Shown one piece after another: positions 5,587 through 52,760 of a DNA stretch of 64,000 bases. The stretch is from Sphingomonas lutea (lineage in GTDB: Bacteria; Pseudomonadota; Alphaproteobacteria; Sphingomonadales; Sphingomonadaceae): positions 1,198,501 to 1,262,500 of the forward strand of contig NZ_CP060718.1 in NCBI RefSeq assembly GCF_014396785.1, in the 5' to 3' direction. A model generated the notes under the pieces. That model made no database searches. It was not told where the DNA came from and worked only from the letters and a program-made list of their open reading frames with translations. The number at the start of each line of letters is the position of its first letter. The stretch's first letter is position 1. The position numbers and the translations under genes were made by a program.

Positions 5587-8295
5587 ATGACGGACCGCAC
5601 GTCGCGTTTGGTTGTGATCGGGTTGCTGGCGTCAACGGCAATGGGCTCCGCAGCCTTCGCCCAGGTCTCCACTTCGCCGGCCGACGCGACGCCCGAGTCG
5701 CCGACGACGCAATCGCCCGCGCCGGGGACGAACGCCACCAACGTGACGTCCAACCCCGCCGTTCAGCAAGCGCAGGACGGGCTTGTCCCCGACGAAACCG
5801 AGATCATCATCACCGCGACCAAGCGCGAGGAAAACCTGCAGGACGTCCCGATCAGCGTGCAGGCAATCGGCACGCGGCGGCTCGACCAGCTGAACATCTC
5901 CAACTTCGAGGATTATACGAAGCAGCTTCCGTCGGTCAGCTTCCAGACCGCGGCGCCGGGCTTCACGACCGTTTACATGCGCGGCGTCGCCACCGGCGGC
6001 GACGGCAACCATACGGGGTCGCTTCCGTCGGTTGGCTTCTACCTCGACGAGCAGCCGGTCACGACGATCGGGGGAACGCTCGACGTCCACATCTACGACA
6101 TTGCCCGGATCGAGAGCCTCGCCGGACCGCAGGGCACGTTGTACGGCGCCTCTTCGCAGGCGGGCACGATCCGCATCATTACCAACAAGCCGGAGATCGG
6201 CGTTACCGCGGGCCGCGTGGATGCCGAACTGAATAGCGTCGCGCATGGCGGAGTCGGGGGCAGCCTCGAAGGCATGATCAACTTGCCGATCAGCGACCGC
6301 ATGGCCTTCCGCGCGAACGTCTTTTACCAGCGCGACGCCGGCTACATCGACAATGTGTTCGGGGAGCGGGCTTATTGCGGAAGCAAGGTCTTTGGCCCGG
6401 ACGGGGACGATGACGATCTCCTCCCCGATTTGATCGGATGCGATCGCACCGATGGTATCCAAGTCGATAATGCCGCGTTCGTCGACGACGATATCAACGT
6501 CAACAAGACCTATGGCGGCCGTGCGGCGCTGAAGATCGATCTTGACGATAATTGGACCGTCACGCCCCAGATCATGCACCAGAACAGCAAGACGCGCGGC
6601 GTCTGGTTCTTCGACGATCGTCTGGGCGACCTGGAGACGCAGCGGTTCCGTGAAGAGCCGGCCAAGGACAAGTTCACGCAGGCCGCGCTCACCGTCGAAG
6701 GGAAGGTCGGCAACTTCGACATCACCTATGCCGGCGCGTACATGCATCGTCCGAATTCGGGTGTCAGCGACTACACCGACTATGCCGACGCTTATGATGC
6801 TTATTACGAGAGCGTCGGCGGCATCGCGAATTACCAGTATTTCGTCGACGATGCGGGCGGTCCCATCGACATCCGCCAGTACATCACCGGCGGCAACAAC
6901 TTCAAAAAGCTAAGCCAGGAACTGCGCGTCGCATCGCCGCAGGAGAATGCGCTGCGGTTCATCGGCGGCCTGTTTTACCAGCGGCAATCGAATGACATCC
7001 TGCAGGAATATCGAGTCGACGACCTTGCCGCGGACCTGTCGGTCAACGGTCGTCCCGGAATTTTGTGGCTGACCAAGCAAAAGCGCATCGACCGGGATTA
7101 TGCCATCTTCGGAGAGCTGAGCTTCGACGTTACGCCGCAGATCACGCTGACGGGCGGCGGACGCTATTACAAGTTCGACAATACCGTGTTCGGTTTTGCC
7201 GGCTTTGGCCGTGACCCCTTGTTCATCCAGGATGCTGACGGGGACCCGCTGCCCGGCTCGCCGCCGCCGAATGCGGTCGGAAGCACCCGGACCGGCGTTG
7301 CCCAATGTTTCACCGTCGATGGCGATTCCCTGCGCGAATCACAGATCGGTGGCACCGACACGACCCTCATCCTCGACGGCAAGCTTGATGGGACGCCCTG
7401 CATCAACGTCGCCACCTTCGAAAATGGGGAGCTCAAGCCCAAGGCGAGCAAGGACACGGGCTGGACCTATCGTTTCAACGGCACATGGAAGCCGCGCGAC
7501 GGGCTAATGTTCTATGCGACTCGGTCGAAAGGCTATCGACCGGGCGGCATCAACCGCCAGCCGGGCCTGGCGCCGTACAACGCCGACTTCCTGATCAACA
7601 ATGAGCTTGGCTGGAAGACGACCTTCGGGCCGTTCCGCTGGAACGGCGCTATCTACCACCAAGTGTGGGAGAAGTTTCAATTCAGCTTCCTCGGCGAAAA
7701 CAGCCTGACCGTGGTGCAGAACGGGCGCGATGCGCGGATCAACGGCATCGAAACCGACATCAACTATACCGCGGGCGGGCTGACGCTGAATGCCGCGGCG
7801 GCCTTCACCGATGCCAAGACCAAGGACAATATCTGCGGAGTCGCCGCAGATCCGGAGCCCGATTGCGACCTCATCCTAGTCGAGGACGACCCACTGACGG
7901 TGGAAGATGAGGAGGAGCGGGACGAGATCGTCGCGCCCAAGGGCACGCGCCTGCCGATCACGCCCAAATTCAAATTCTCGGCGACCGCGCGCTACGCCTG
8001 GAACATGGGCGCGGGCCGGGCGCATGCGCAAGCCGGTCTGTCATACCAAGGTTCCGCGCGCTCCGCCTTGCGCACGGACGACCAGGCGATCACCGGGACA
8101 CTTAGATCCTACGCCCTGGTTGACCTGTTCACAGGCTATACGTGGGGCAATTACAACGTCGAACTGTTCGGCACGAACATCTTCGACAAGCGCAACGAAT
8201 TGTCGCGCGGTGTCGGCTGCAGCATCTGCACCAACGTCCGCATCTATCCCGGGCGACCGCGCACCTTCGGACTGCGCGCGGGGATGAAGTTCTAG
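5587..8295 (+). CDS. TonB-dependent receptor
   Basis: 902-residue outer-membrane active transporter. A signal peptide (residues 1-25, ending AFA) is followed by a Pro/Thr-rich spacer and a TonB-box-like segment EIIITATKREENLQDVP, the start of the plug domain typical of sphingomonad receptors. The plug runs to about residue 220 (LAGPQGTLYGASSQAGTIRI). The rest alternates aromatic strands of the 22-strand barrel and ends in the terminal phenylalanine (RTFGLRAGMKF) used by the BAM machinery. Asp-rich insertions occur in probable surface loops (about 260-300 and 760-780). The substrate is not evident. A good ribosome-binding site (aggggaa) precedes the ATG. The sulfotransferase immediately upstream may be co-expressed. 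Confidence 0.95.
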   Translation: MTDRTSRLVVIGLLASTAMGSAAFAQVSTSPADATPESPTTQSPAPGTNATNVTSNPAVQQAQDGLVPDETEIIITATKREENLQDVPISVQAIGTRRLDQLNISNFEDYTKQLPSVSFQTAAPGFTTVYMRGVATGGDGNHTGSLPSVGFYLDEQPVTTIGGTLDVHIYDIARIESLAGPQGTLYGASSQAGTIRIITNKPEIGVTAGRVDAELNSVAHGGVGGSLEGMINLPISDRMAFRANVFYQRDAGYIDNVFGERAYCGSKVFGPDGDDDDLLPDLIGCDRTDGIQVDNAAFVDDDINVNKTYGGRAALKIDLDDNWTVTPQIMHQNSKTRGVWFFDDRLGDLETQRFREEPAKDKFTQAALTVEGKVGNFDITYAGAYMHRPNSGVSDYTDYADAYDAYYESVGGIANYQYFVDDAGGPIDIRQYITGGNNFKKLSQELRVASPQENALRFIGGLFYQRQSNDILQEYRVDDLAADLSVNGRPGILWLTKQKRIDRDYAIFGELSFDVTPQITLTGGGRYYKFDNTVFGFAGFGRDPLFIQDADGDPLPGSPPPNAVGSTRTGVAQCFTVDGDSLRESQIGGTDTTLILDGKLDGTPCINVATFENGELKPKASKDTGWTYRFNGTWKPRDGLMFYATRSKGYRPGGINRQPGLAPYNADFLINNELGWKTTFGPFRWNGAIYHQVWEKFQFSFLGENSLTVVQNGRDARINGIETDINYTAGGLTLNAAAAFTDAKTKDNICGVAADPEPDCDLILVEDDPLTVEDEEERDEIVAPKGTRLPITPKFKFSATARYAWNMGAGRAHAQAGLSYQGSARSALRTDDQAITGTLRSYALVDLFTGYTWGNYNVELFGTNIFDKRNELSRGVGCSICTNVRIYPGRPRTFGLRAGMKF

Positions 8296-38460: not shown

Positions 38461-39102
38461 TCAGGATGCCGCGCGACGGTTGTCCTGCTGCCCGCGAAGC
38501 CAGCTCACAAGCATTGGCAGCCCCAACGGACGGGTGAAGTGGATGCCATGCGCCGCGCCATCCTTCCACCGGACGATCCCCTGTGCCGGGGGCAAGTCGA
38601 TGAGCGTGATCACGACCGATGCATTGACGGTGAGGTTCGCCGCGCCGACAACCATCATTCCCCCCTGCGAGATATTGGCGCCGGTCATCCGATGCACGGT
38701 ACCGTCTTCCCGAACCCAGGCGGTGCAATTGACCTCAACGCGCGGAATGCGCGGGCGCGGTCCATCTCCCGCCGCGGAAATCAGGTCGACGATGTCGATC
38801 GGCGCGTCGAAAGTGACGCCGGCGAAGTCATACTTGATCCATCGGACATAGCCCGAGATCTGCTCGCCCTGCTTAAGTTCGACGGATAACCGCGTACCCG
38901 CCGCAATGTCCGAATAGATGCGGATCATCATGCCGCCGGCGGAAACGTTGCGAATCAGGCAGAGCTCGCGCCGGTCGGCGAGGATGAGCGAGCCGACTCG
39001 AAGCAGACTCACATGGCGCTCGTCGTGGCGGCGCTTGAGTGGGCACGGCGCGTCTCCGCCCAAGGAATATAGGGTCGTTTCAACCGGCCGTTCGTCCAGC
39101 AT
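38461..39102 (-). CDS. Tandem PilZ domain protein
   Basis: 213 residues from the ATG at 39102 (MLDERPVETTL), which has ggggaagag upstream; an ATG at 39156 is a longer alternative. Two PilZ-like domains follow one another: the first around RHVSLLRVGSLI...IRNVSAGGMMIRI, the second around RIPRVEVNCTAWV...ANISQGGMMVVG. Each keeps the N-x-S-x-G-G-M part, but the first has a weakened RxxxR. Possibly only one domain binds c-di-GMP. Its end faces the end of the single-domain PilZ gene, 8 bases away. Confidence 0.85.
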   Translation of the reverse strand: MLDERPVETTLYSLGGDAPCPLKRRHDERHVSLLRVGSLILADRRELCLIRNVSAGGMMIRIYSDIAAGTRLSVELKQGEQISGYVRWIKYDFAGVTFDAPIDIVDLISAAGDGPRPRIPRVEVNCTAWVREDGTVHRMTGANISQGGMMVVGAANLTVNASVVITLIDLPPAQGIVRWKDGAAHGIHFTRPLGLPMLVSWLRGQQDNRRAAS

Positions 39103-39269
39103 GCACTCTTCCCCGATATTGCTCGACCCGGCGCGTCGCTTGGTCGAACCGGCCATACGTTACGGGCAAGGCTAGGTTAGGGGTCTTACCAGTTGGTTGC
39201 CGTGGCGCCGCCGTGGTGGAAAATGCTTCGATTTCGGCGGGGAAGCGGCGAAAAGGCGGAGAAAGCGAA

Positions 39270-40281
39270 ATGCGAACGATGACAGCACTGGCTTCGCTCG
39301 CGATGTCCTGGGGCGCGCTTGCGGCCAACCCTCTCCCGCCAACGACGCTTGAGGCGGTCAGTGAGCCGGGCGAGATCGATTCGACAACCCAGACGCAGGA
39401 TATTCGGTTCGAGAGCGATCGGGCTAACCGCATGACGGTGCCCGTACGGCTCGGCCAGGGCACCTATCGCTTTCTGGTCGATACCGGCGCGGACCGCACC
39501 GCAATTTCTCATCAACTGGCAAAAGACCTCAACCTGCAGGCGGGGCCGATGGCCACGTTGCACAGCGTGACCGGGATCACCTCCGTTGCCACTGCGACTG
39601 TGCCCGCCCTAGGGCTGAGCCAAAGGGAAGTGCGCATCGTCGATGCCCCTTGCTGGACCAGTCGCATATGGGGCGGACGGCATCCTGGGTGTGGATTCGT
39701 TGCGGTCGCAGCGCATTCTGTTCGATTTCGATGCGCAAACCATGTCCATCGTCCCCTCCGCCCGACCCGATTTCGAGCGAGAGCCCGGAAGCATTGTCGT
39801 CCGTGCCAGCCGCCGAAATGGCCGTCTGGTCATGACCAATGCCCGCGCCGATGGCCGCCGGATCAACGTCGTGCTCGACACCGGTTCGGAGATCACCATC
39901 GGCAATGAGGCTTTGCGGCAGGCGATGCTCAAGAAGCGGCAGCTGACCGATTCCCATCGCGTTGAAGTGCATTCCGTCACGGGTCACAAGATTGCCGGCG
40001 ATTACATGCGGTTGAAACGGCTGGAGATCGGTGGAGTCGAGCTCAATGACCTTGCCATCATTTTCGCGAATGCGCACACGTTCAAGAAGCTTGGCCTTCA
40101 GGATAAGCCCGCAGTGCTTCTCGGCATGAATGCGATGCGGGCATTCAAGAAGGTGTCGATCGACTTTGCCAACCGCAAGCTTCGTGTCGTCCTGCCCAAC
40201 CAAAGCGCGACGGACATGAGGATCGCAAGCTTGCCGCCCAGCCTGCGGCCGGCTGTCCAGCGAACCGGCCTGCGCTATTAG
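39270..40281 (+). pseudogene. Double-domain retropepsin-like aspartyl protease, frameshifted
   Basis: Two halves in different frames. The first (from ATG 39270) has a signal peptide (residues 1-19, ending LAAN) and the active-site triad FLVDTGADRTAIS. It loses homology at the CCCC run at 39646-39649. The second (readable from 39643) continues GPVAYGADGILGVDSLRS and holds the second active-site motif VVLDTGSEITIGN, ending at 40281. Skipping one C of the run joins them as ...VDALAGPVAYGADGILG..., about 336 residues, a normal size for the two-lobe exported aspartyl proteases of this group. Either a recently inactivated gene or a one-base sequencing error; both halves look otherwise intact. Confidence 0.85.
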
Positions 40282-41406: not shown

Positions 41407-41853
41407 TCAGCCTCGAGGTAGCAGGGGCAGGTAGTCGCGCACATCACCTCCGGTTACGACGGTGTCGCCGGAGATGAGCCAAGCATGAGCCTCAAACGGA
41501 TTGGCGCCGCTCTCGCGAATCCCGATTGCCACCCTAGATGGAATGCCGTGACGTCGGAGCCAGCGCTGTGCAGCAAGCGCTTGGATCAGGCAGTCGGCGC
41601 GCCACGGTACCCGGTAGCAGGCGCGCGCGATCGCAATGCCCACGCGATCAATCGTCACGTGAGGGTGATATGCGCGGGCGTGCGTGGGAGTATCGATGGC
41701 TGTCTCGAGCATCGTCTGAACGCTAGCGCGTCGGAGCGTCAACCGCGCACGGCCCAGTTCAACAGTTGCTGTTGCGAAATCGAGCCAATCCCCCCAGGTT
41801 AGGGAGAGAATGCTGCGCGATCGTGTCCGTTCATGCAGCGATGATAATCTCAT
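41407..41853 (-). CDS. Lasso peptide biosynthesis B2 protein (transglutaminase-like leader peptidase)
   Basis: 148 residues. Cysteine protease of the lasso B2/McjB C-terminal type, which cuts the leader from the precursor. The catalytic Cys is C88 in WRADCLIQALAAQRWLRRHG, the His is H123 in FEAHAWLISGD, and the third residue is probably D137 in TVVTGGDVRD. The FEAHAW and CLxxALAxQRxLRRxG patterns are diagnostic. Separate B1 and B2 proteins, as here, are the rule outside the McjB-type fused systems. The start codon lies 23 bases inside the B1 gene. Confidence 0.93.
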   Translation of the reverse strand: MRLSSLHERTRSRSILSLTWGDWLDFATATVELGRARLTLRRASVQTMLETAIDTPTHARAYHPHVTIDRVGIAIARACYRVPWRADCLIQALAAQRWLRRHGIPSRVAIGIRESGANPFEAHAWLISGDTVVTGGDVRDYLPLLPRG

Positions 41854-42109
41854 TAGTTCTCAAGTCTTCTAGGAACCGGCGCGTGTCTTCCTCGACCTGC
41901 GCCAAAGGTGCATCATACTCCCTAGCGATATTCGAACAGATCTGCCGAACGCTTTGACCTTCGTTCATCCCCTTCCAAATCCGAGAGGCTAATGGGTCCA
42001 TTCCGTAATAGGTCCCGCGCTTTATCTGCAGCAGGACTAGTTCGTTTCCAACCGCGTTGGCGAAGGCGTCAGGAGAGGGCTGCCACGCTTGATCAAGAAT
42101 ATCAGTCAT
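41831..42109 (-). CDS. Lasso peptide B1/PqqD-family leader-binding protein
   Basis: 92-residue PqqD-like winged-helix protein (RiPP recognition element) that in characterised systems binds the YxxPxLxxxG leader and presents it to the protease and cyclase. The LVLLQIKRGTYYGMDPLASRIW segment is typical (Y-Y-G-x-D/N-x-x-x-x-R-I-W), followed by helices VRQICSNIAREYDAP and VEEDTRRFLEDLRTNEII. ATG overlaps the kinase stop (ATGA). Its expected partner, the YxxPxLxxxG motif, is present in the precursor gene of the same operon. Confidence 0.93.
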   Translation of the reverse strand: MTDILDQAWQPSPDAFANAVGNELVLLQIKRGTYYGMDPLASRIWKGMNEGQSVRQICSNIAREYDAPLAQVEEDTRRFLEDLRTNEIIIAA

Positions 42110-42975
42110 GCAATTCCCTTATTTCCGGTAGCAACCGCCCCGGTAGCATGGTCTGTCACCGCTGCAATTACCTCAGGCAAGCCACTGTAGGACCGAGGGT
42201 AATCAATGCGGTAACAATTCACCGCGTCAGCCAGCTGGGTGAGCGCGTGGAAGTGCTCTCGATGGCGCCGCTCGTCGTCGAAATCCAGAATGAAGGCGTG
42301 ACTGATCAATAAGGGGATTGCTGGCAATGCCGCGAGCGGCTTGATGGCTACGCTGCTCGTTTCGTCCGAGCCCAGCAGATAGATCGCCCGGAGCGGTAGT
42401 GGGTGCACTTGAAAAGGAAGCGCAGGGCCGGTGCTCAGAAGCTGCTTTTCCTCCTGCTCGGCCGAAGATCCTTGCGCATCATGCAGGAGCGCAAGTTGGC
42501 TATCCCGCCAAAGCCTCAGCGCGGGGCGATTTGGGTTGGCGATGAACGTCGGGCCCGACCGTTCGATCCAGACACCGTCATCGGTTAGGAACGGATTGCC
42601 GGCACGCGCAAAGGCAGCCGCCAGCGTGGACTTGCCCTGGCCCGACGAGCCCACGAAGGCCACCGCAGCCTCCGAGACCGCCACAGCGCTTCCATGCAGC
42701 ACCAGCTTCCCATGGTGGCTTCCTAGCAAGGGAAGGACCTGGTTGTAATAAAGCCCGTCGATGACGTTCTCGCTCGCGCCATCGCAAGGGAAGCAGGTCA
42801 CGTCCGAGGATTCCAAGTTGACGATGAAGTCCGCTCGGTGCGGGAAGCGAAGCAAATATCCGCCGTCGGTCCGATAGAAAGAGAGGGTAACGACGCCCGA
42901 CTCGACGATCCATTGGTGGTAAGGCGATTGCGGTAACGGCCCCTGCGCGCGGCACGGCTCCAGATTGAGCCTCAT
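42106..42975 (-). CDS. HPr-kinase-like RiPP-tailoring kinase
   Basis: 289 residues. P-loop kinase related to the C-terminal domain of HPr kinase/phosphorylase. The Walker A motif GSSGQGKST is at residues 109-117, preceded by the family strand LVLHGSAVAV (H94) and followed by FLTDDGVWI (D132, D133), the region that binds Mg and the acceptor. In the paeninodin-type lasso systems relatives of this kinase phosphorylate the hydroxyl of the C-terminal Ser of the precursor. By analogy a Ser/Thr of this precursor is the acceptor (inference). Coupled at both ends by ATGA overlaps to the methyltransferase and B1 genes. Confidence 0.88.
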   Translation of the reverse strand: MRLNLEPCRAQGPLPQSPYHQWIVESGVVTLSFYRTDGGYLLRFPHRADFIVNLESSDVTCFPCDGASENVIDGLYYNQVLPLLGSHHGKLVLHGSAVAVSEAAVAFVGSSGQGKSTLAAAFARAGNPFLTDDGVWIERSGPTFIANPNRPALRLWRDSQLALLHDAQGSSAEQEEKQLLSTGPALPFQVHPLPLRAIYLLGSDETSSVAIKPLAALPAIPLLISHAFILDFDDERRHREHFHALTQLADAVNCYRIDYPRSYSGLPEVIAAVTDHATGAVATGNKGIA

Positions 42976-44093
42976 CCCTTGATGTTCCTGGAAAGCTCGA
43001 GTTCGGCAAGGCGCCTGATCTCATCCCGGCTGGCAAAAAGGTCGGGATGAGTACGGACGAGGTCCTCGACAATTTGATCGGTCGTTCGAACACCATCGAC
43101 ATATTGCAGCAGTGCTTTGCGAAACGCTCCGACAGGGCTCAGCTCCGCAACCTTGGGGCGGGTCGCCGGAAGCGTGCCGGGACCTATGATCATGCTGTGC
43201 CACGTCGACTGCCGATGGCGTTCTCCCGTCCTCGGCAGGCGAATCGTCCATGCGAGCAAGTTCGTGTCGGGCCTGAACACAACGCTCGCTTCAAGCGCGT
43301 CGCCAGCCTGTACGGCAACGGGACGTTCGAACGGAAGGAAAGCTTGGTCGCGCTTTATCGCATTTCCATCGAACGGTGAGTTGGACATCGAGACGGTCGC
43401 GGAAAGCGTGCATTCGAACCAGCTGACTAGCCCGTCGATCACGCCGTCGCGCTTCGCACGGAGCGTGGCCTCAAGCGTTAATTGCTCCGAGTTATCCTGA
43501 TAGAGATCCAATCGACCGACCTGGGCGGCTTCGGACAGGATGTCGTCCGCGCAGAAAGTCCGCGGATGTTTCATGTTGACGCCATGTTCGCGGAGCCAGC
43601 GATACTCGGCAGGAATGTTTGGTTGGCCCCACTCCTCGGCCTTCGTTCGGCACTGCGGCGCGTTCGCAGCGGCGAGGAAGAGTTGAAGACCTTCCGGAAG
43701 GATATTTCCGCCCGGCTTGAGGAAGCGCCGTCGGGCATCGCCCAATGTGTCGAGAATGCCGTAATCCACGCCGAAATGGCCGACGTGATCGCAGACGATG
43801 AGATCGACTTGTTCGGGAATGGTCGCACGGAAGCTCCGCTCACGAACACACGTATATCGGTCCGAAAGCCCCAGACGGGTCATGGTTTCACGAGCCAGTT
43901 CGATCGCATCTGTCTGGTCGATGCCCCAGACATGTCCTGCACCCGCCTTCAGACAGAGCAGGCCTAGGATGCCTACGCCGCATCCAAGGTCGAGAACGCG
44001 GTCGCCGGGCCGAACCGTCTCGGCAATTGCTTTGCAAAACAGTTGCAGGCGTACCTCATCGCTGAGGTACTCCAAATGTTCATCGAGAAGCAC
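42972..44093 (-). CDS. PRMT-like SAM methyltransferase with PqqD-like C-terminus
   Basis: 373 residues from a GTG at 44093; no good ribosome-binding site is seen, and the homology seems to begin slightly upstream, so an unusual start is possible. Motif I VLDLGCGVGILGLLCL (residues 33-48) and the layout HLEYLSDEVRLQLFCKAI plus a loop DHVGHFGVDYGILDTL resemble protein-arginine methyltransferases, but the two glutamates of the arginine-binding double-E loop are not kept (D/H instead). Hence a different acceptor, perhaps a carboxylate or hydroxyl, is likely. The last 60 residues (VGAFRKALLQYVDGVRTTDQIVEDL) look like a winged-helix/PqqD-like leader-binding module. The gene starts 35 bases after the precursor stop. 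Confidence 0.82.
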   Translation of the reverse strand: MLLDEHLEYLSDEVRLQLFCKAIAETVRPGDRVLDLGCGVGILGLLCLKAGAGHVWGIDQTDAIELARETMTRLGLSDRYTCVRERSFRATIPEQVDLIVCDHVGHFGVDYGILDTLGDARRRFLKPGGNILPEGLQLFLAAANAPQCRTKAEEWGQPNIPAEYRWLREHGVNMKHPRTFCADDILSEAAQVGRLDLYQDNSEQLTLEATLRAKRDGVIDGLVSWFECTLSATVSMSNSPFDGNAIKRDQAFLPFERPVAVQAGDALEASVVFRPDTNLLAWTIRLPRTGERHRQSTWHSMIIGPGTLPATRPKVAELSPVGAFRKALLQYVDGVRTTDQIVEDLVRTHPDLFASRDEIRRLAELELSRNIKG

Positions 44094-44128: not shown

Positions 44129-44527
44129 TCAGGCGTGACTGATCCCCAGCATGCCATAATCGACACGGCGATAGCCGTTGGTGCCTACCGACACGGCGGC
44201 CGGCAAGACCTGCGCGACCTCGTCAGCCATGACACCGAACTGGCGCCCAACGCCGCAGGCCGCCTTGAAGGCGGGCTTGAAGTCGAAAAGGTAAAGGCCG
44301 ATCCCAAGCGGGTGATCCCCGACGCGAACGACGTTCTCCTTAGCCGCAGGATCCGACGTCATCGTCATTCCGGCAGTTGTACCCCCATCTGCTCCGGATC
44401 CCTCCCCGGTACGGGTGAGATCGCGGACATTGCCGAAGACGGTGAGTTTAGGCGCCTCGTACGCCGCCTTCACAGCTTCGAAGGCTTCATTCTGATCAGG
44501 AAGGCCGTTCGATTGCAGATCGTCCAT
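44129..44527 (-). CDS. Lasso-type RiPP precursor fused to a Peptidase_S74 autoprocessing domain
   Basis: 132 residues in three parts. Residues 1-39 are the leader with the lasso consensus in exact spacing: Y23, P26, L28, G32 and T38 (YEAPKLTVFGNVRDLTR). Since T38 is normally position -2, the core starts at T40. Residues 40-57 (TGEGSGADGGTTAGMTMT) are the putative 18-residue core, with Asp47 as core residue 8, a normal ring acceptor. Residues 58-132 are a complete Peptidase_S74 intramolecular chaperone domain: S58-D-P-A-A-K63 (the Ser/Lys dyad spacing of MYRF and phage tail-spike domains), LYLFDFKP, RQFGVMADEVAQVLP and GYRRVDYGML. Self-cleavage before S58 would set the core C-terminus. The gene lies between cyclase and tailoring genes; a clear ribosome-binding site precedes the ATG. 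Confidence 0.86.
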   Translation of the reverse strand: MDDLQSNGLPDQNEAFEAVKAAYEAPKLTVFGNVRDLTRTGEGSGADGGTTAGMTMTSDPAAKENVVRVGDHPLGIGLYLFDFKPAFKAACGVGRQFGVMADEVAQVLPAAVSVGTNGYRRVDYGMLGISHA

Positions 44528-44542: not shown

Positions 44543-46429
44543 CTAACATTCTTGCTCGGAAAGCAAATCCCCAGCTGTCATGCATCCAAAGATGCCCCAC
44601 AACTTCCAAATGGGATTTCCTTCGTAAGACTCCGAGCGGTACGTGTCGAATAGTCGGTCTACCCCGCTTAGATCAAGATAACTCCTGACATCGGGTTTGG
44701 AGCCCTCGAAAAGATTTGCCATTCCGTCCAGCTGTCGGGCGAATGCGACGGTAAACTCCGCTTTAGTCATCCGATCGACCACCATGTCTGGCAGAAGGCC
44801 CGCAAGCGCCCGGCGATGCGTGTACTTGCCAATCGTGGCCTTTCTCTTGATTCGGTCGGGCGTAGCGAACGCAAATTCAATGAACCGCCTGTCGTGCAAC
44901 GGGCTTCGCGGTTCATACCCAGCACGAGCGGCCAGCTTGGTACCCAGATCGCTCGCGAAAGCCGAATAAGCATTGTTCAGCCATCGGCTGACCCCCCGCC
45001 GGTCGATGAACGTGCTGGCCACTACATCTGTGCCAGAAGCAGTGCGGCGGGCCGCTAGCAGCGACCTGAGTTCGGGCGATAGCCAATATGCCTCGTCGCG
45101 CCCCGATGCCGAAACCCGCCTGATGGTCCGAAGAGCCTTCCAAAGTGGAGGCGGGAGGAGTTCGGTGGGGCCGAAACGCAAGAACCACCAGGCGGTTTTG
45201 GCAAGACCGACGCTGGCGATGTCCTCGCGCAGACTTCGGCCAAGTCCAGACCAATCATGCGCGGCCAGTTGCTCGGCATAGTAAAGCAGATTGCCTTCGA
45301 GCCACTCATCGCCGCCGCTGCCGTTCAAGATGACGCGGCATCCGTCGCCCGTGGCCGCGGCCGCCATGCCGAGGCCCATCGCGCCATTCGGATAGGGCGG
45401 AATGTCGCAGTCGGCGCGGGAGCGCTCCTGGAACCAGCGTCGAGGGGGGAGGAAGGGCGGAACTTCCGCGATCGCTTGCCGGCTGTGCTGGCCAACGGCC
45501 CGGGCAAAGGCGATCTCGTCTGCCTCGCTACCCGTTTCTTCGAACTTGAGCGTGTAGCCCTTCAACGCCGGTGCGAGGAGGCGCCCCTCGTGCTGCAATT
45601 TGCTGGCTACCGCGAACACGGCGGACGAATCCAGCCCGCCGCTGACCTCACAGCCCAGACGAAGGTGCGACCGCGAGGATCGTCGCACACAATCGAACAG
45701 CAGCGTTCGGTAATGCTCGACGTAATCGTCGTCGTTCCTATAGTGAACGGTCACCCGTGACGGGGGCGACCAGTATTTGGAGCGCACCATTCCGTCCGGA
45801 TCCGCGCTTAACGCGTACGCGGCCGGGAGGCGCAGCACTTCCTGCCAGATCGTCTCATCCTTGCTGAGCACGATGCCTGCCATCAGCTCCGCGAACATTC
45901 CGCGGTTGGGACGCGCTTGAACGCCCCCTGCAAGGGCGCCGGCGATGTCGGAGGCAACAATCAGTCGTTTTCCGTCCCAATGATAATGGAGGGAGCGGCG
46001 CCCGGCGTGGTCGCGGGCGCAAAATGCGCGTTGCCTTCGTGAATCCCAGAGGACAAAGGCAAACTCTCCTTCGATGTGGTGCGGGCATTGCTCGCCCCAG
46101 ATTTCATATGCTCGCAGCACCAATTCGGAATCGGATCGCGTTCGCAAGCGTGCCGAGCGAGAGAGCAATTCGCGGCGAAGCTCCTCCCAATTGCTGAGGG
46201 TGCCATCCATCACAAGAACGATCGAGCCGTCGTCGGACTGCAAGGGCTGGCGCTCCTGGAGTGACTCCTTTGTGGTGCGCAGCATGCAATGGCCGAGGGC
46301 GGCCTGCTGGCTTGTCCAATGATCGATGCAGTCAGGGCCGCGATAGGCCATGGCTGACGTCATTCGCGCGATGAGATCCGGATCTACTGGACGACCATCA
46401 AAGTAAAATATGGCGGCGATCCCGCTCAC
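44543..46429 (-). CDS. Lasso cyclase (asparagine synthetase-like, C protein)
   Basis: 628 residues starting at GTG (46429), overlapping the ABC transporter stop (GTGA). N-terminal glutaminase-like domain (residues 1-180) and C-terminal ATP-dependent synthetase domain with the PPi loop SGGLDSS at 263-269 and a later NGSGGDEWLEGN. In asparagine synthetase residue 2 is the catalytic Cys; here the protein begins M-S-G-I, so glutaminase activity is lost, as in lasso cyclases. It adenylates the side-chain carboxylate of the ring Asp/Glu and closes the macrolactam with the core N-terminus. Located directly upstream of the precursor. Confidence 0.93.
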   Translation of the reverse strand: MSGIAAIFYFDGRPVDPDLIARMTSAMAYRGPDCIDHWTSQQAALGHCMLRTTKESLQERQPLQSDDGSIVLVMDGTLSNWEELRRELLSRSARLRTRSDSELVLRAYEIWGEQCPHHIEGEFAFVLWDSRRQRAFCARDHAGRRSLHYHWDGKRLIVASDIAGALAGGVQARPNRGMFAELMAGIVLSKDETIWQEVLRLPAAYALSADPDGMVRSKYWSPPSRVTVHYRNDDDYVEHYRTLLFDCVRRSSRSHLRLGCEVSGGLDSSAVFAVASKLQHEGRLLAPALKGYTLKFEETGSEADEIAFARAVGQHSRQAIAEVPPFLPPRRWFQERSRADCDIPPYPNGAMGLGMAAAATGDGCRVILNGSGGDEWLEGNLLYYAEQLAAHDWSGLGRSLREDIASVGLAKTAWWFLRFGPTELLPPPLWKALRTIRRVSASGRDEAYWLSPELRSLLAARRTASGTDVVASTFIDRRGVSRWLNNAYSAFASDLGTKLAARAGYEPRSPLHDRRFIEFAFATPDRIKRKATIGKYTHRRALAGLLPDMVVDRMTKAEFTVAFARQLDGMANLFEGSKPDVRSYLDLSGVDRLFDTYRSESYEGNPIWKLWGIFGCMTAGDLLSEQEC

Positions 46430-48108
46430 GCGGAGACCTTTTGAAGCCGTCGCTCGTCCGCCCTGAGTTCCCGGATTCGGCCGTCTTCGAGCGTCACGAT
46501 ACGATTGGCCAGGGCAAGCGTAGCGGGCCGGTGCGTGACTAGGATCACCGTGCGACCGTGAAGCGCATCGTTGCAGGCATCGATAAAGGCCTCTTCGCCC
46601 TCATCGTCAAACATCGAGGTGGCCTCGTCGAATATGATGATTGCCGGGTCTTTGATCAGTGCGCGCGCCAGCGCAATCCGCTGCCGCTGACCGCCGGAGA
46701 GGCGAAGCCCGCAGTCTCCAATGACCGTGTCCATGCCGTAGGGCAGGGAAGCGACGAAATCGAGCGCCTGAGCCAGCCGAGCGGCATCATCGATCATCTG
46801 TTGCGATGCACCGACCGCTCCGAACGCAATATTCTCCCTGATGGTGGCGTTGAACAGGAGTGCGCTCTGCGGAACCAGACCGATTCGGTCTCGCAGCGCG
46901 CTCAGGCCCATGGTCCGGCTATCCTCGCCATCGACGAAGATCGCGCCGACTTGCGGGTCGTAGTAGCGCATTAGCAGATTGATCATCGCGGTTTTGCCGG
47001 CACCGTTCGCGCCCAGGATGGCAATCCTTTCCGCAGCGCCGACCCGAAGATCGACACCGGTCAGGACGGGGTCGCGCCCAGCATAAGCAAAATGGACATT
47101 GCGAAATTCAATCGCCCCGTGCGCACGCGGTCGGCGCGATGCTTGGGCTGCCCCGACATCCTCAGTCGGCTCGGCCAGGACCGCACTGAGTCGGGCGAGC
47201 GCCCCGCGGGCCGTTTGAATTTGGCCGTAGAGGTGCGCCAGCGACCCGACCGGACGCGTGAGTAAGGCGGCGTAGAACATGAAGCTGAACAGCTCGCTGG
47301 CAGTCATCCGGCCGTCCGAAACGTCGTGGCCCGCGAACCATAGGACGGCCAAGGCGGCAAAAGCGGCTATCAAGCTAATCAGGGGGTCTAGGGCCGCGTA
47401 GATCCGGCCCTGCCGAACCATCAGGCCCTCAAGCTTGCGAACCGTCTGGCGATAGCGGTCGTACTGAGCCGCTTCCTGGCCGAAAGCCTTGGTCGCGGGC
47501 ACGATCTGCAGCGCTTCGTCCGAAAGCGCTATTGCTCGGGCGTCGGCCTGCTGGATCTGCACGGCAAGGCCTTGAAGCCGCCGACCGACGATCTTGGTGG
47601 CGAGGTAGAAAAGGGGAACGATGGTCGGGATAAGAAGTGCTAACCGCGCGTCGATGGTGAACATGACGATCATGGCCCCGATCGCAGTCAGCAGGCGAGC
47701 TGGAACTGCCACTAGGGTGACCGCGACGAATTCGCTCAGTTTGGCGATTTCGATCGTCATGACGGCAAGCATGTCGCCTTTGCCCCGGCTGTCGTGGAAA
47801 GCCATCGGCAATCGCTGCACATGATCGAAAATACGCTCGCGAAGCTCGGCAAGCAGGGCCGCGCTCATTCGAACCATGCGGTCGGCGGTGAGGAAGCTCA
47901 GCATTGCAATCGCAACGAGACAGGCGGCAAGGACGCCAACCGCCCCTTTCAAGGCGCCCTCTTGCCCGGTGACCATGGTGCCCAAAAGGTGTCCGGCCAT
48001 CCAGGGAACGACGAGAAGTACCACAGAACTCGCCGTGGTGAGGATCACCAGCAGCAGAAGCCGCGCCATATGCTGACGATTGAGGCGGAGGATCCGGAAG
48101 ATCGGCAT
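46426..48108 (-). CDS. ABC transporter, permease-ATPase fusion (lasso D protein)
   Basis: 560 residues from the ATG at 48108 (MPIFRILRLNRQ). The frame is open further upstream, but that would overlap the nucleotidyltransferase end by 100 bases. A six-helix exporter membrane domain (about residues 15-300) is followed by an ATPase domain with Walker A GANGAGKT (about 363), Q-loop VPQSALLF, signature LSGGQRQRIALARAL (about 468), Walker B IIIFDEATSMFDDEG and the switch VTHRPAT. No N-terminal C39 peptidase domain is present, so leader removal is left to B2. Exporter of the mature peptide and probable self-immunity factor, as in other lasso operons. Confidence 0.94.
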   Translation of the reverse strand: MPIFRILRLNRQHMARLLLLVILTTASSVVLLVVPWMAGHLLGTMVTGQEGALKGAVGVLAACLVAIAMLSFLTADRMVRMSAALLAELRERIFDHVQRLPMAFHDSRGKGDMLAVMTIEIAKLSEFVAVTLVAVPARLLTAIGAMIVMFTIDARLALLIPTIVPLFYLATKIVGRRLQGLAVQIQQADARAIALSDEALQIVPATKAFGQEAAQYDRYRQTVRKLEGLMVRQGRIYAALDPLISLIAAFAALAVLWFAGHDVSDGRMTASELFSFMFYAALLTRPVGSLAHLYGQIQTARGALARLSAVLAEPTEDVGAAQASRRPRAHGAIEFRNVHFAYAGRDPVLTGVDLRVGAAERIAILGANGAGKTAMINLLMRYYDPQVGAIFVDGEDSRTMGLSALRDRIGLVPQSALLFNATIRENIAFGAVGASQQMIDDAARLAQALDFVASLPYGMDTVIGDCGLRLSGGQRQRIALARALIKDPAIIIFDEATSMFDDEGEEAFIDACNDALHGRTVILVTHRPATLALANRIVTLEDGRIRELRADERRLQKVSA

Positions 48109-48118
48109 AGGGTGTGTG

Positions 48119-49231
48119 CTATCGTCGCGGTCTTGCAAGTTCGGCAAGCCGCCGCAGATACAGGCTGGGCAGCGGGCGATGCTCAAGCGCGCGATATTTG
48201 GCGCGCATGAAGCCTGCACTGGGGAAGGCGCGGGCGGTCAAGTAACGGAGTTTCCGACCAATTCCCCGGACTGCCCACCAATCGAGCCATGCGCGGCGCA
48301 ATTGGCCACCGCTGAAATATCGCGACGACTTGGACATCAGCGCCGATTCGACCCACTCAGGTGCAACTGGGCCGACGCGGTCGGAAGCGGCAACAAGGCC
48401 ATCGCGGCAGATCCGGGCAACCTGTTTGCTTTGCGCCAGCCGGCAAAATTCACGCCACTCAATTTCGGAGATCGATCGGCCGATTAGCGCGATGTCCCAC
48501 AGCCAGATCAGTCTATTGCCGCCGTAATATGTCTCGCCACCGACGAAATAGGGGGCGCAATCATGCAAGCCACGATGCAGTAACGCATGAAGAAGCATCA
48601 TCGGGCGGCTCGGAGCTCGGGCGGTTGCTGACAATCGAGGCAATGGACGCGCACCTGCGAACCAATCGTCGACCGAGAACATGCGATCGACTGCGGGCGT
48701 GTTCATCGCGCGCCAGTGGAGATCGATGCAATGCGTCGAGTTATCGGGCGCGAGCAAAAGCCAACTTTCCTGGAATCGCAGCTCGGGGGGAAGAAAGCCA
48801 TGATCTGACGGCGCCTCAAATCCACAATTGGTCAACAAGGAACGAGCGCATTGAAGATTCCGCTCGTGAATAAGAAGGTCGGTGTCGGCGCGTGCCCGTT
48901 CGGCAGGATTTTCGTAAAGATCGTAAGCGAGTGCGGTGCCCTTAAGCAGAAGGGTCGGGATGTCCGAGTCGGCAAAAGACTTCAGCAATGGTCGGAGCAC
49001 CGCCGCGTGCTGGAGCTCCCACATGGCCTGATCACGTGCGTCCGCGCGGACTTGCTCGCTAAGCTCCGCCGGCCAATTCGCGACAAGATCATCGCTGACC
49101 ATTTTCGTCCCGATACCATGATAGGCGAGGTGCTGTAGCGCGGCATTGGCCGGAATGTCGGGCGGAAGGGGCTCCGCTCGACGATTGCGCAATGCCTTTG
49201 AAAAGACGATGTCCAGTGCCTCATTTTTCAT
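48119..49231 (-). CDS. Nucleotidyltransferase-family protein (NTP_transf_5-like), first gene of the RiPP operon
   Basis: 370 residues. The core is LLLKGTALAYDLYENPAERA followed by RADTDLLI: a G-T/S motif and the D-x-D pair typical of the minimal nucleotidyltransferase fold (PF14907-like). Further down, HCIDLHWRAM and ALLHRGLHDC fit the same family. Members occur in several lasso operons, next to HPr-like kinases, where a tailoring role on the phosphorylated peptide has been suggested. The substrate is unproven. Transcription of the operon begins upstream of this gene. Confidence 0.85.
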   Translation of the reverse strand: MKNEALDIVFSKALRNRRAEPLPPDIPANAALQHLAYHGIGTKMVSDDLVANWPAELSEQVRADARDQAMWELQHAAVLRPLLKSFADSDIPTLLLKGTALAYDLYENPAERARADTDLLIHERNLQCARSLLTNCGFEAPSDHGFLPPELRFQESWLLLAPDNSTHCIDLHWRAMNTPAVDRMFSVDDWFAGARPLPRLSATARAPSRPMMLLHALLHRGLHDCAPYFVGGETYYGGNRLIWLWDIALIGRSISEIEWREFCRLAQSKQVARICRDGLVAASDRVGPVAPEWVESALMSKSSRYFSGGQLRRAWLDWWAVRGIGRKLRYLTARAFPSAGFMRAKYRALEHRPLPSLYLRRLAELARPRR

Positions 49232-49635
49232 AGCTGGCGCATCCTGTAATCGACTTTCGCAGCCACGACATCACTGATTGGTGCTATCAACGCGGCGGCC
49301 ATTCATGCTGGCAGTGGGACGAAATGAGGGGAAGCATCAATGCGAGGTGCGGAGCGGGGATTATTCAATCGAGGAACAATCGTCATCTCTGCAAGAACAC
49401 TTGGGAATACCAGTTGTGACCGGTTAAGCACGTAAGTAAGAGAAAAGAGCTTTGAGCCTGTCGTGGTGGCACCTGGAGGTTGCGGGGGCAGTCGGGCACT
49501 TGAGGATCTTGGTTTAAACCTATCAGCGAGGCAGTTGATCGTGCCGGGATCAATCCCGTGCGCCACCGTGTTTCCAAGTTCTAAAGTGCCTGCGTCCGAT
49601 CGCGCCCTCACTTGGGCCAAGGAGAGTGCAAATAC
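49232..49635. other. Divergent intergenic region between RiPP operon and polysaccharide locus
   Basis: About 400 bases between two divergent starts, so it must hold promoters for both. Short minus-strand open frames here have no homology I recognise, no start context and are discounted. I see no clear -35/-10 pair, repeat or RNA gene. Confidence 0.55.
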
Positions 49636-50799
49636 GTGAGCCAAAATGTCGTCATCACCGCCAATAGCGCCTGGTACATCGCGAATTTCCGCGCCGGCTT
49701 GGTTCGGGCGATTGCGGAGCGCGGAATGACGCCGGTGCTGATTGCACCGCCCGACGCGTCGGCGCCGTTCAGCGAGGCGGAGACGATCACGCTCGAGCTG
49801 GAGCGGTCGGGCACCAATCCGGCGCGGGATGCCGGCTTGCTCGGGGCGTTCGTGCGCGCATTTCTAAAGATACGGCCCGCCGCGGGGTTCAGCTTCACCA
49901 TCAAACCCAACATCTATGCTGCCATCGCGGGACGGATGCTCGGCACACCAGTGATGCCCACCGTCACCGGCCTTGGAACGGTTTTCATCAAGGGCGGCGG
50001 GCTGATGGGCCTGGTCGAGCGGATGTATCGCTTCGCCTTCAAGCGCTGTCCGGTGGTGTTCTTCGAAAATCGCCACGACCTAGACACCTTCGTCGAGCGA
50101 GGGATGGTTGACATCTCGCAGGCGCGGCTCGTTCCTGGTTGCGGGGTGGATTTGGAGCGGTTTGCGGCGACTCCCCTGCCGCAGGGGCGGTTCACATTCC
50201 TGCTCGTCGCTCGCCTCCTACGCGACAAGGGCGTGGGCGAGTATGTCGAAGCGGCGCGGATCCTTCGGGACAAGGGGATCGCTGCCAATTTCCAGATTCT
50301 TGGTCCGCTGGACGTAGGCAACCGCACGGCCTTCGCGCGTGAAGAGGTCGATCGGTGGGCCGCACACGGTCTAATCGATTATCTGGGCGAGGCGGCGGAC
50401 GTCCGGCCTTTCCTCGCTCGGGCAAGCGCGATCGTCCTGCCCTCCTATCGCGAGGGGCTTCCGCGAGCGCTTCTCGAGGGTGCGGCGATGGGCCGGCCGC
50501 TAGTCGCAACCGACGTCCCCGGCTGCCGCGACATCGTCACCGACAAGGTCGACGGCTTTCTTTGCCAGGCGCGCAGCGGGCCTTCTCTCGCTTCGGCGAT
50601 GGAACGTCTGTTATCCCTGTCGCGGGACCGGCAGGCCGAGATGGGGAAGGCGGCAAGGCGGACGGTCGAGCAGCGCTTTGACGAGCGCGGGGTCGTCGCG
50701 ACCTATCTCGATGCGCTTGATTGCCACGGCTTGCAGAGTCTGCCAGCGCTCTCTCGTCGCTCCCCGGCGCTGGCCGGCGACCCGACGTCATCCAGCTAG
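49636..50799 (+). CDS. Glycosyltransferase family 4
   Basis: 387 residues from the GTG at 49636, preceded by aaggag; a TTG at 49612 is in frame but unlikely. GT-B fold: the N-terminal half recognises the acceptor (NSAWYIANFRAGLVRAIAERG), and the C-terminal half binds the sugar nucleotide (LLVARLLRDKGVGEYVEAARIL, then PSYREGLPRALLEGAAMGRP, the E-x7-E-type motif). The VTGLGTVFIKGG stretch suggests the WbpH/PglA-like group. It transfers a sugar onto the undecaprenyl-linked repeat unit (inference from context). First gene of the polysaccharide operon. Confidence 0.92.
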   Translation: MSQNVVITANSAWYIANFRAGLVRAIAERGMTPVLIAPPDASAPFSEAETITLELERSGTNPARDAGLLGAFVRAFLKIRPAAGFSFTIKPNIYAAIAGRMLGTPVMPTVTGLGTVFIKGGGLMGLVERMYRFAFKRCPVVFFENRHDLDTFVERGMVDISQARLVPGCGVDLERFAATPLPQGRFTFLLVARLLRDKGVGEYVEAARILRDKGIAANFQILGPLDVGNRTAFAREEVDRWAAHGLIDYLGEAADVRPFLARASAIVLPSYREGLPRALLEGAAMGRPLVATDVPGCRDIVTDKVDGFLCQARSGPSLASAMERLLSLSRDRQAEMGKAARRTVEQRFDERGVVATYLDALDCHGLQSLPALSRRSPALAGDPTSSS

Positions 50800-50812
50800 A
50801 GGCTTTTCTCGT

Positions 50813-51856
50813 TTGGCGGCTTACTGGTTCCTGTTCGGCTTTGCCGCGTGCGGCGCGATGCTGGAGGCTCAGCGCGCGCCGAGCGCACCACGGTCAATCA
50901 ACGTCCTTTGGCTTGTGAGTGCTCTTGCGATCGCGACGATGGTCGGTCTTCGCGACGAAGTCGGCGCCGATTGGATCAGCTACATGCAGATGCTTGCGGG
51001 AGCCGGCCGAAGCTCGTTCGGCCGCGCTCTCGAGATTGGCGACCCCGGGTACCAGCTGATCAACTGGATGGCGTATCAACTCGGCGGAGGCATCTATCTC
51101 GTCAACATAATCTGCGCCACCCTCTTCGTCTGGGGGCTGTTCCGGCTTGCCGGCACGCAGCCGCGGCCATGGCTCGCGCTGCTGGTCGCGGTGCCTTACC
51201 TCATCATCGTCGTCGCAATGGGCTATACGCGCCAGGCGGTTGCGCTCGGGATCTTGATGGCCGGCCTCGCGAATTTCGTCCGTGGCGGGTCGACCATCCG
51301 AATCCTGCTTTACGTCGCCGTCGCCGCGCTGTTTCACCGAACCGCGGTGATCGCTTTCTGCCTGGTCGCCTTGGCCTCGGAGCGCAGTCGTTTCATCAAC
51401 GTCTTGATCGCCATCGCGGCCAGCTACTTCCTCTACGACATCTTCATCAGCGGCGAGATCAACGGCCTGGTGGAGCGCTACATCGAGGCGAAATATTCCT
51501 CGCAGGGCGCCGCGATCCGGATCGCGATGAACATGTTTGCCGCAGTGCTTTTCTGGCTGGCCGGCAGCCGCATGGAATTTTCGGAGCGGGAGCGGCGATT
51601 GTGGCAGAATTACTCGCTTGCCGCCGCAGGCCTCCTGTTCCTGCTGTTGGTGTTGCCCTCGTCGACCGCGGTCGACCGGATGGCGCTCTACATCCTGCCG
51701 CTACAGCTTGTGGTGCTGTCCCGCCTGCCGCTCGCCATCGGGCAGTTCACGGGGAAAATCGCCGTTGCGGGCTATCTGCTTCTGGTGCAGTTTGTGTGGT
51801 TGAACTTCTCCCAATACGCCAGGTACTGGGTGCCCTATCAGTGGGTTTTGTCATGA
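50813..51856 (+). CDS. EpsG/Wzy-type polysaccharide polymerase
   Basis: 347 residues if started at TTG 50813, 14 bases after the glycosyltransferase stop with agagg upstream. The longer frame starting at 50678 overlaps the previous gene. About ten membrane segments. The EpsG family pattern is visible: [18 protein letters not shown] in the N-terminal loop, [13 protein letters not shown], and [14 protein letters not shown]. The enzyme joins repeat units on the periplasmic side. It is the expected partner of the Wzx flippase further down. Confidence 0.88.
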
Positions 51857-51878
51857 GCCGAAGTCGATTGGAGCGTCT

Positions 51879-52760
51879 GTGAAGGGTATTGTCCTTGCCG
51901 GTGGAAGCGGGAGCCGGCTGTACCCCGCGACGCTCGCGGTGTCGAAGCAGCTGCTTCCCGTGTTCGACAAGCCCATGATCTTTTATCCGCTGGGTGTGCT
52001 GATGCTCGCCGGAATCCGCGAGATTCTCATCATTTCGACGCCAACGGACTTGCCGCGCTTCGAAGCCCTGCTGGGCGATGGCACGCGGTATGGGATCCGC
52101 CTGTCCTATGCCACCCAAACGGAACCGCGCGGCCTGGCCGATGCCTTCATCGTCGGCCGCGAATTCGTCGGCGACGATCCCGTCGCCCTGATCCTGGGCG
52201 ATAACATCTTCTATGGCGCGGGCCTCAGCCAGCTCGTCCAGCAAGCCGCAGCTCCGCAGACCGGCGCAACAGTCTTCGCTTATGCGGTGGAAGACCCCGA
52301 GCGTTATGGCGTCGTGGAGTTCGACAAGGCGGACGGCCACGCCGTTTCCATCGAGGAAAAGCCGTCGGAACCGCGATCAAACTGGGCCGTCACCGGTCTC
52401 TATTTCTACGACAATGACGTGGTCGATATTGCCGCCGGCCTGGCCCCGTCGCATCGCGGCGAGATCGAGATCACCGACGTGAACCGCGCCTATCTAGCGC
52501 GCGGAGACCTGCGTGTGGCACAACTCGGACGCGGCTTTGCCTGGCTCGATACCGGGACTCACGACAGCTTGCATGACGCCGGGTCGTTCGTCCGCACGAT
52601 CGAAAAGCGCCAGGGCATGAAGATCATGTGCCTGGAAGAAATCGCGTTGGAGCTGGGCTATCTAAGTCCGGCAGACCTGCGCTCGGTGGCGGACAAGCTC
52701 GGCTCCACCGATTATGCCGACTATCTCCGCCGCCGCGCGACCGAGCACGAAGATGCTTGA
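51879..52760 (+). CDS. rfbA: Glucose-1-phosphate thymidylyltransferase
   Basis: 293 residues from GTG 51879. First step of dTDP-L-rhamnose synthesis: dTTP + glucose-1-P gives dTDP-glucose. The nucleotide-binding signature [20 protein letters not shown] and [16 protein letters not shown] is at residues 3-38. [11 protein letters not shown] carries the Mg-binding Asp. The C-terminus [13 protein letters not shown] is conserved. Overlaps rfbC by 8 bases. Confidence 0.97.

Follow-up and report, generated by a model that had tools for sequence, protein, structure and literature searches.

Why would the precursor of a lasso peptide carry, behind its core, a domain known from phage tailspikes? The question is raised by a gene in the window, a stretch of 64,000 nucleotides from Sphingomonas lutea (contig NZ_CP060718.1, positions 1,198,501 to 1,262,500), where the minus strand carries an open reading frame (ORF, 44527..44129) that joins a lasso leader to a Peptidase_S74 domain. 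Judged by its leader, its accompanying enzymes and its ring acid, the encoded protein is a variant of the lasso precursors; by sequence it is also a member of PF13884. On balance, we consider it probable that the protein consists of a leader (residues 1–39), a core (40–57) and a phage-type S74 domain (58–132), and that self-removal of the S74 domain frees an 18-residue lasso peptide.

The residues on which the initial annotation relied (Y23, P26, L28, G32, T38, S58 and K63) all stand where it placed them, and both domain assignments were recovered with family models. NCBIfam NF033521 (lasso_leader_L3) matches residues 23–43 with 24.6 bits (cut-off 19), and PF13884 matches residues 58–112 with 22.3 bits against a cut-off of 22, covering model positions 1–57 of 58. 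Taken alone the PF13884 match is marginal, but it is more than chance because all 54 members of alignment A1 match this family at E ≤ 0.01. The C-terminal part of the profile built from these 54 members finds the intramolecular chaperone (ICA) domain of MYRF in the PDB (7dc3, E 0.0026) and a phage long tail fibre (E 0.0045), while its N-terminal part finds the TbiA lasso leader peptides 5v1v (E 0.15) and 5v1u (E 1.7), neither of which is significant alone. The leader Thr of lasso precursors usually sits at −2 relative to the core. With this rule applied to T38, the core starts at T40 and its acid, D47, falls at position 8, within the range of positions 7–9 typical of lasso peptides, giving an eight-residue ring; we infer that the leader is cut after R39. 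Alternatively, the ring may comprise seven residues, starting from G41 instead of T40.

Two homologue searches at E ≤ 0.01 returned 469 and 1028 proteins, and the best 120 of each were examined. These gave 225 different homologues, including P0143, a leaderless ORF fragment of 85 aa; 218 of the 224 full-length proteins were parsed by script and the remaining six were inspected as printed sequences. Co-conservation of the leader with the S74 part, a check set by the initial annotation, is complete: lasso leader, Ser-x4-Lys and an acid at core position 8 or 9 occur together in 218/218 script-parsed homologues. The six others also show the ring acid and Ser-x4-Lys, so that the acid is present in all 224, and acids at other core positions are rare. 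The leader pattern, with some substitutions permitted, was recognized by script in 223 of the 224, the exception (P0216) having Cys for Tyr. Among 112 aligned members, which are 45–60% identical to the window protein, S58 and K63 both have zero entropy; the leader residues Y23, P26, G32 and T38 have 0.00–0.07 bits, and residues 54–57, just ahead of S58, have 3.3–3.4 bits each. In the window, genes for B1 (PqqD/RiPP recognition element, RRE; RiPP, ribosomally synthesized and post-translationally modified peptide), B2 (transglutaminase) and C (asparagine synthase) adjoin the precursor, and at least cyclase or HprK/B1 genes adjoin it in each of the 16 loci L003–L018. Two of these loci (L003, L015) are cut by contig ends and one (L013) has an in-frame stop.

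Relatives that lack the S74 domain provide a natural control. A cyclase search of 336 genomes of the order matched 21 at E ≤ 1e-90, own genome included, and 17 of the matching neighbourhoods were analysed together with loci from other searches; the resulting locus table omits the duplicates L051, L089, L090 and L093 and the cluster-less L055–L057. S74 precursors are found in 19 loci and conventional precursors with the same kind of leader in 21, 11 of which are one close Erythrobacter type. Core lengths, counted with L013 and the second precursor of L015 left aside, are 16 (6 loci), 17 (7), 18 (4), 19 (1) and 23 (1) with S74 (n = 19) and 15 (1), 16 (14), 17 (3), 18 (1), 21 (1) and 24 (1) without it (n = 21). 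The length of the tail from the ring acid shows no clear difference (17 with S74 versus 21 without; Mann-Whitney p 0.07). The endings themselves are alike: GGFMTMV-stop (L086), GGGSMTMML-stop (L081), FMAMP-stop and TTMDMF-stop (L094) without S74, and, with a slash before the S74 Ser, AGMTMT/S in the window, GGIMTMAM/S and TTMDMVP/S (L016) with it. The stop codon of the S74-less precursors falls at the place of S58, so that S58 coincides with their encoded C-terminus.

Since S74-less homologues with a like leader and core stop there, S58 probably marks the mature C-terminus. In L013 (7923–8354, a single metagenome-assembled genome) a TAG apparently replaces the S74 Ser codon itself, and the frame runs on into a recognizable S74 sequence that is conserved apart from this change; no credible S74 remnant was found in the 700 nucleotides downstream of 12 conventional precursors. 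On a cyclase tree of 39 rows, from which L003 and L015 are absent as they have no usable cyclase, presence of S74 changes at least three times (four if L013 is scored as lacking it), and therefore cores of this kind occur both with S74 and without it. Read most simply, S58 stands at the end of the peptide and the S74 domain is an add-on that comes off. One of the two roles offered in the initial annotation was trimming of the core C-terminus through self-cleavage: that the domain defines the core end is well supported by the S74-less relatives, and the self-cleavage is what the invariant dyad suggests.

We propose the following sequence of events. B1 and B2 would bind and remove the leader, and the cyclase would join the amine of T40 to D47 around the tail, both steps being inferred from the gene set and the motif; the macrolactam and its threading are likewise predictions. 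The S74 domain would then cut itself off at T57–S58 through the S58/K63 dyad, the timing being presumed like the cut, and release an 18-residue lasso peptide, a length at which, in relatives lacking S74, a stop codon ends the core. Until that cut, the tail may be shielded by the folded domain, which may also serve as a stopper. For detaching the domain, self-removal by S58/K63 is the best candidate mechanism; in MYRF, S587A or K592A abolishes cleavage (PMC8326128, excerpt).

The precursor lies in a minus-strand operon in the order nucleotidyltransferase, ABC transporter, cyclase C, precursor, PRMT-fold methyltransferase, HprK-like kinase, B1 and B2 (Table 1). The cyclase, B1 and the kinase score too low for the NCBIfam equivalog cut-offs and so are divergent members of their families. 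On the plus strand at 39039–40281, some 1.1 kb past B2, two overlapping ORFs in different frames, perhaps a frameshifted gene, encode pieces of an aspartyl protease (PF13650, PF13975). After the lasso cluster, on the other strand, follow polysaccharide-type genes (49612–52760, +) for a glycosyltransferase (PF13692), an EpsG-family polymerase (PF14897) and a sugar nucleotidyltransferase (PF00483). The G+C content per kb is 0.58–0.64 in 41–49 kb and 0.66–0.68 in 30–38 kb; that of 50–60 kb is also low (0.59–0.66).

Table 1. Features of the lasso-S74 locus in window coordinates
Feature	Position	Strand	Basis or remark
Precursor gene A, 132 aa (lasso leader, core, short Peptidase_S74 domain)	44129..44527	-	ORF
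Leader, residues 1-39, with Y23, P26, L28, G32; T38 at -2	44411..44527	-	NF033521
Core T40-T57, TGEGSGADGGTTAGMTMT, 18 aa; predicted ring acceptor D47 at position 8	44357..44410	-	
D47 codon	44387-44389	-	Predicted ring acceptor, core position 8
Short Peptidase_S74 domain, residues 58-132	44132..44356	-	PF13884
S58 codon	44354-44356	-	Predicted dyad
K63 codon	44339-44341	-	Predicted dyad
NTP_transf_5 nucleotidyltransferase	48119..49231	-	PF14907, 105.6 bits
ABC transporter, likely exporter D (ORF start may be upstream of true start)	46426..48219	-	PF00664, PF00005
Lasso cyclase C, asparagine-synthase-like, SGGLDSS P-loop	44543..46429	-	PF00733, PF13537; NF033535 330 bits, cut-off 525 not reached
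PRMT-fold methyltransferase, double-Glu loop altered to CDHVGHFGVDYG	42972..44093	-	PDB 1g6q, 83 bits; family alignment
HprK-related kinase	42106..42975	-	PF07475 and TIGR04352, both below cut-off
B1, PqqD-type leader-binding protein (RRE)	41831..42109	-	PF05402, 66 bits; NF033536 below its cut-off
B2, transglutaminase-like leader peptidase	41407..41853	-	PF13471, 83 bits; NF033537 over cut-off

How far the S74 part resembles the domains that cleave themselves bears directly on the proposed mechanism. With the ICA/S74 domains of endosialidase tailspikes and MYRF it shares the Ser-x4-Lys dyad and a GVMADEV-like core motif, and its best fold matches, though weak, are 7dc3 (MYRF ICA), 3gw6 and 3gud; viral ICA models also matched. 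Its cargo is a short RiPP core in place of a trimeric beta-helix. The domain had been described as full, which is correct for the Pfam model and not for the structural unit, as it is a short form that ends where the alpha4 coiled coil of MYRF would continue. Residue 130 of 132 aligns with MYRF 679, the last aligned MYRF residue, and the MYRF zipper comprises residues 685–699 (PMC8326128, excerpt). Two observations weigh against self-cleavage of the known kind. The trimer elements are missing: the precursor lacks the C-terminal alpha4 coiled coil, on which trimerization and cleavage of MYRF depend, and neither of the two predicted structure models has a helix at the place expected for alpha1. 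Moreover, Pro stands directly before the Ser (position P1) in 44 of the 218 parsed members. A simple copy of the MYRF or endosialidase mechanism is therefore disfavoured, and to call the domain a trimeric, self-cleaving ICA would be a hypothesis. The domain may also serve as a folding aid or oligomerization unit, the other role initially envisaged for it.

The same short C-terminal S74, with S-D-x-x-x-K and an end soon after V-x-Y, is found in podovirus ejection proteins (L096–L099) and in longer bacterial proteins of the same phylum (L035–L044, L049, L050), which differ in their size of about 160–700 aa and in that no lasso leader was seen in them. Nor is the module confined to phage and lasso proteins: in L034 a long bacterial protein (602-aa ORF) bearing a PTAQEVAGVFSL motif has a short S74 at its C-terminus too. 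In a same-genus genome (L002, 1030–1779) a phage-like protein has a short S74 with Cys for Ser (CDRRLK).

A first alternative, unlikely in our judgement, is that the S74 domain stays attached. The product would then be a lasso-capped protein, perhaps an oligomer, in which the folded domain, as a stopper, holds in place a threaded tail with few bulky residues. F, W, Y or H follows the ring acid in only 23 of 120 cores (the first S-x4-K was taken as the boundary, so a few boundaries are mis-set), the helices that MYRF requires for cleavage are missing from the precursor, and lasso peptides have been fused artificially, with success, to GFP and to a leucine zipper (Zong 2016, cited in PMC8498205, excerpt). 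Yet relatives without S74 have their C-terminus at this very position, and the tails of several are just as rich in Met/Gly, so that a stopper is not generally needed, and a permanently attached domain would leave the invariant S58/K63 pair without a role.

Slightly less probable still is a non-catalytic folding or solubility tag, taken off near S58 by ordinary host proteases or another enzyme. The missing trimer elements, the Pro at P1 and the short form at the C-terminus of other phage-type proteins would all be compatible with a tag, and the two aspartyl protease ORF pieces beyond B2 could supply the enzyme. These pieces, however, match nothing at E ≤ 1e-3 among the ORFs of 47 related loci, and no peptidase other than B2 was found among the eight cluster proteins scanned. 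Moreover, S58 and K63 show no variation, whereas the residues between and ahead of them vary.

We give a lower chance again to the more ambitious idea that the S74 domain is a topological chaperone in cis, which would hold the tail as a thread during ring closure by the cyclase, sense completion and cut itself free. In MYRF the strand bearing the cleavage site passes through a 'donut' of beta-strands (PMC8326128, excerpt). In both models of the precursor, T55–T57 lie in a strand adjoining the S74 domain, with a modest mean predicted local distance difference test score (pLDDT) of 60 and 69 for residues 51–60, a placement that allows but does not show such a role.

Two further explanations are very improbable: that the leader is mere decoration on a small phage tail-fibre-like protein, as NCBI names might suggest, for which leader, ring acid and lasso gene neighbourhood are all too well conserved, and that the S74 part is functionless leftover phage sequence, which its sporadic gain or loss and the interrupted L013 would permit and its strong conservation, with invariant columns over the 112 aligned members, contradicts.

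Among known systems, the closest are conventional Sphingomonadales lasso loci with HprK/NTP-transferase genes (Erythrobacter type L019–L025; L079–L095), which share the leader motif and the ring acid (position 8 or 9) and have homologues of the cyclase, B1, HprK and B2; their precursors have a similar core length but stop at the core end, with no S74. Clusters of the paeninodin/pseudomycoidin type likewise have an HprK-like kinase and a nucleotidyltransferase beside the lasso genes, and there the kinases modify the C-terminal Ser of the precursor (PMC8498205, excerpt). The window precursor instead ends in His-Ala, and the end of its core is internal; Ser is the last residue in 4 of 120 homologues (best 120 of 469). 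Artificial lasso fusions, again as described by Zong 2016, resemble the precursor in joining a folded protein to the lasso C-terminus and differ in that they are engineered, contain a flexible linker and lack a domain that removes itself. In agreement with the initial annotation, no description of a lasso system with the S74 layout was found in searches of the open-licence literature (subscription papers and preprints lie outside this scope).

The gene adjoining the precursor, assigned to the PRMT fold by sequence, has a pattern of its own. The PRMT double-Glu (double-E) loop reads CDHVGYFGFDYG or close in this family (alignment of 23 rows, with L009 split at the loop). The 22 rows spanning it have C-D-[HQ]-[VI]-G...D instead of S-E-W-M-G...Y-E-S, so the two catalytic Glu of PRMTs are absent. 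Across 41 loci the methyltransferase gene is present in 24/24 whose tail contains Met beyond the ring acid and absent in 17/17 without Met, a match that holds among S74 loci (15 versus 4) and others (9, L013 included, versus 13). The loci are not independent, because 11 of the 17 Met-less loci are one close Erythrobacter type. On the tree both traits require seven changes, and the well-supported branches provide four independent pairs; all agree, but their number is too small for significance (sign test p 0.125). The obvious hypothesis is a methyltransferase that acts on, or depends on, methionine; it may methylate Met itself. The pattern points to a further tailoring reaction.

No precursor was found in 36 other genomes of the genus, some of them incomplete; the sole same-genus match (G034) is a 250-aa ORF, phage-like by eye. 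At E ≤ 1e-6 the family profile matches 8 of 396 genomes of the order, seven with lasso-S74 precursors, own genome included, and one (G395) with a different protein. This sporadic distribution suggests horizontal gain. Orphan S74 lasso precursors occur in L055 (8285–8692) and L056 (8255–8671), where no cluster genes were found in the vicinity; L056 is surrounded by metabolic genes in a genome with a conventional lasso cluster elsewhere (L095). L015 carries, on the same contig as its S74-type precursor, a second, conventional one with its own HprK-like gene (5988–7178, −). Longer cores with two or more Cys (P0113, P0123–P0130 and others; 57 among the 224 full-length proteins, enriched by the second query) hint at disulfide-bearing lasso peptides.

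Precursor searches that expect short ORFs may miss such members, because their public names are 'tail fiber domain-containing protein' for some or hypothetical. If our reading is true, the family offers natural lasso-protein fusions to build on, and holding of the tail during threading becomes testable through one point mutation, S58A. A topological chaperone, if true, would mean that the precursor gene itself encodes help with threading, a step of lasso biosynthesis that is poorly understood. Here a branch of lasso precursors ends in an apparent self-processing phage domain and not at a stop codon, which, if true, would be a new way to define the C-terminus of a RiPP.
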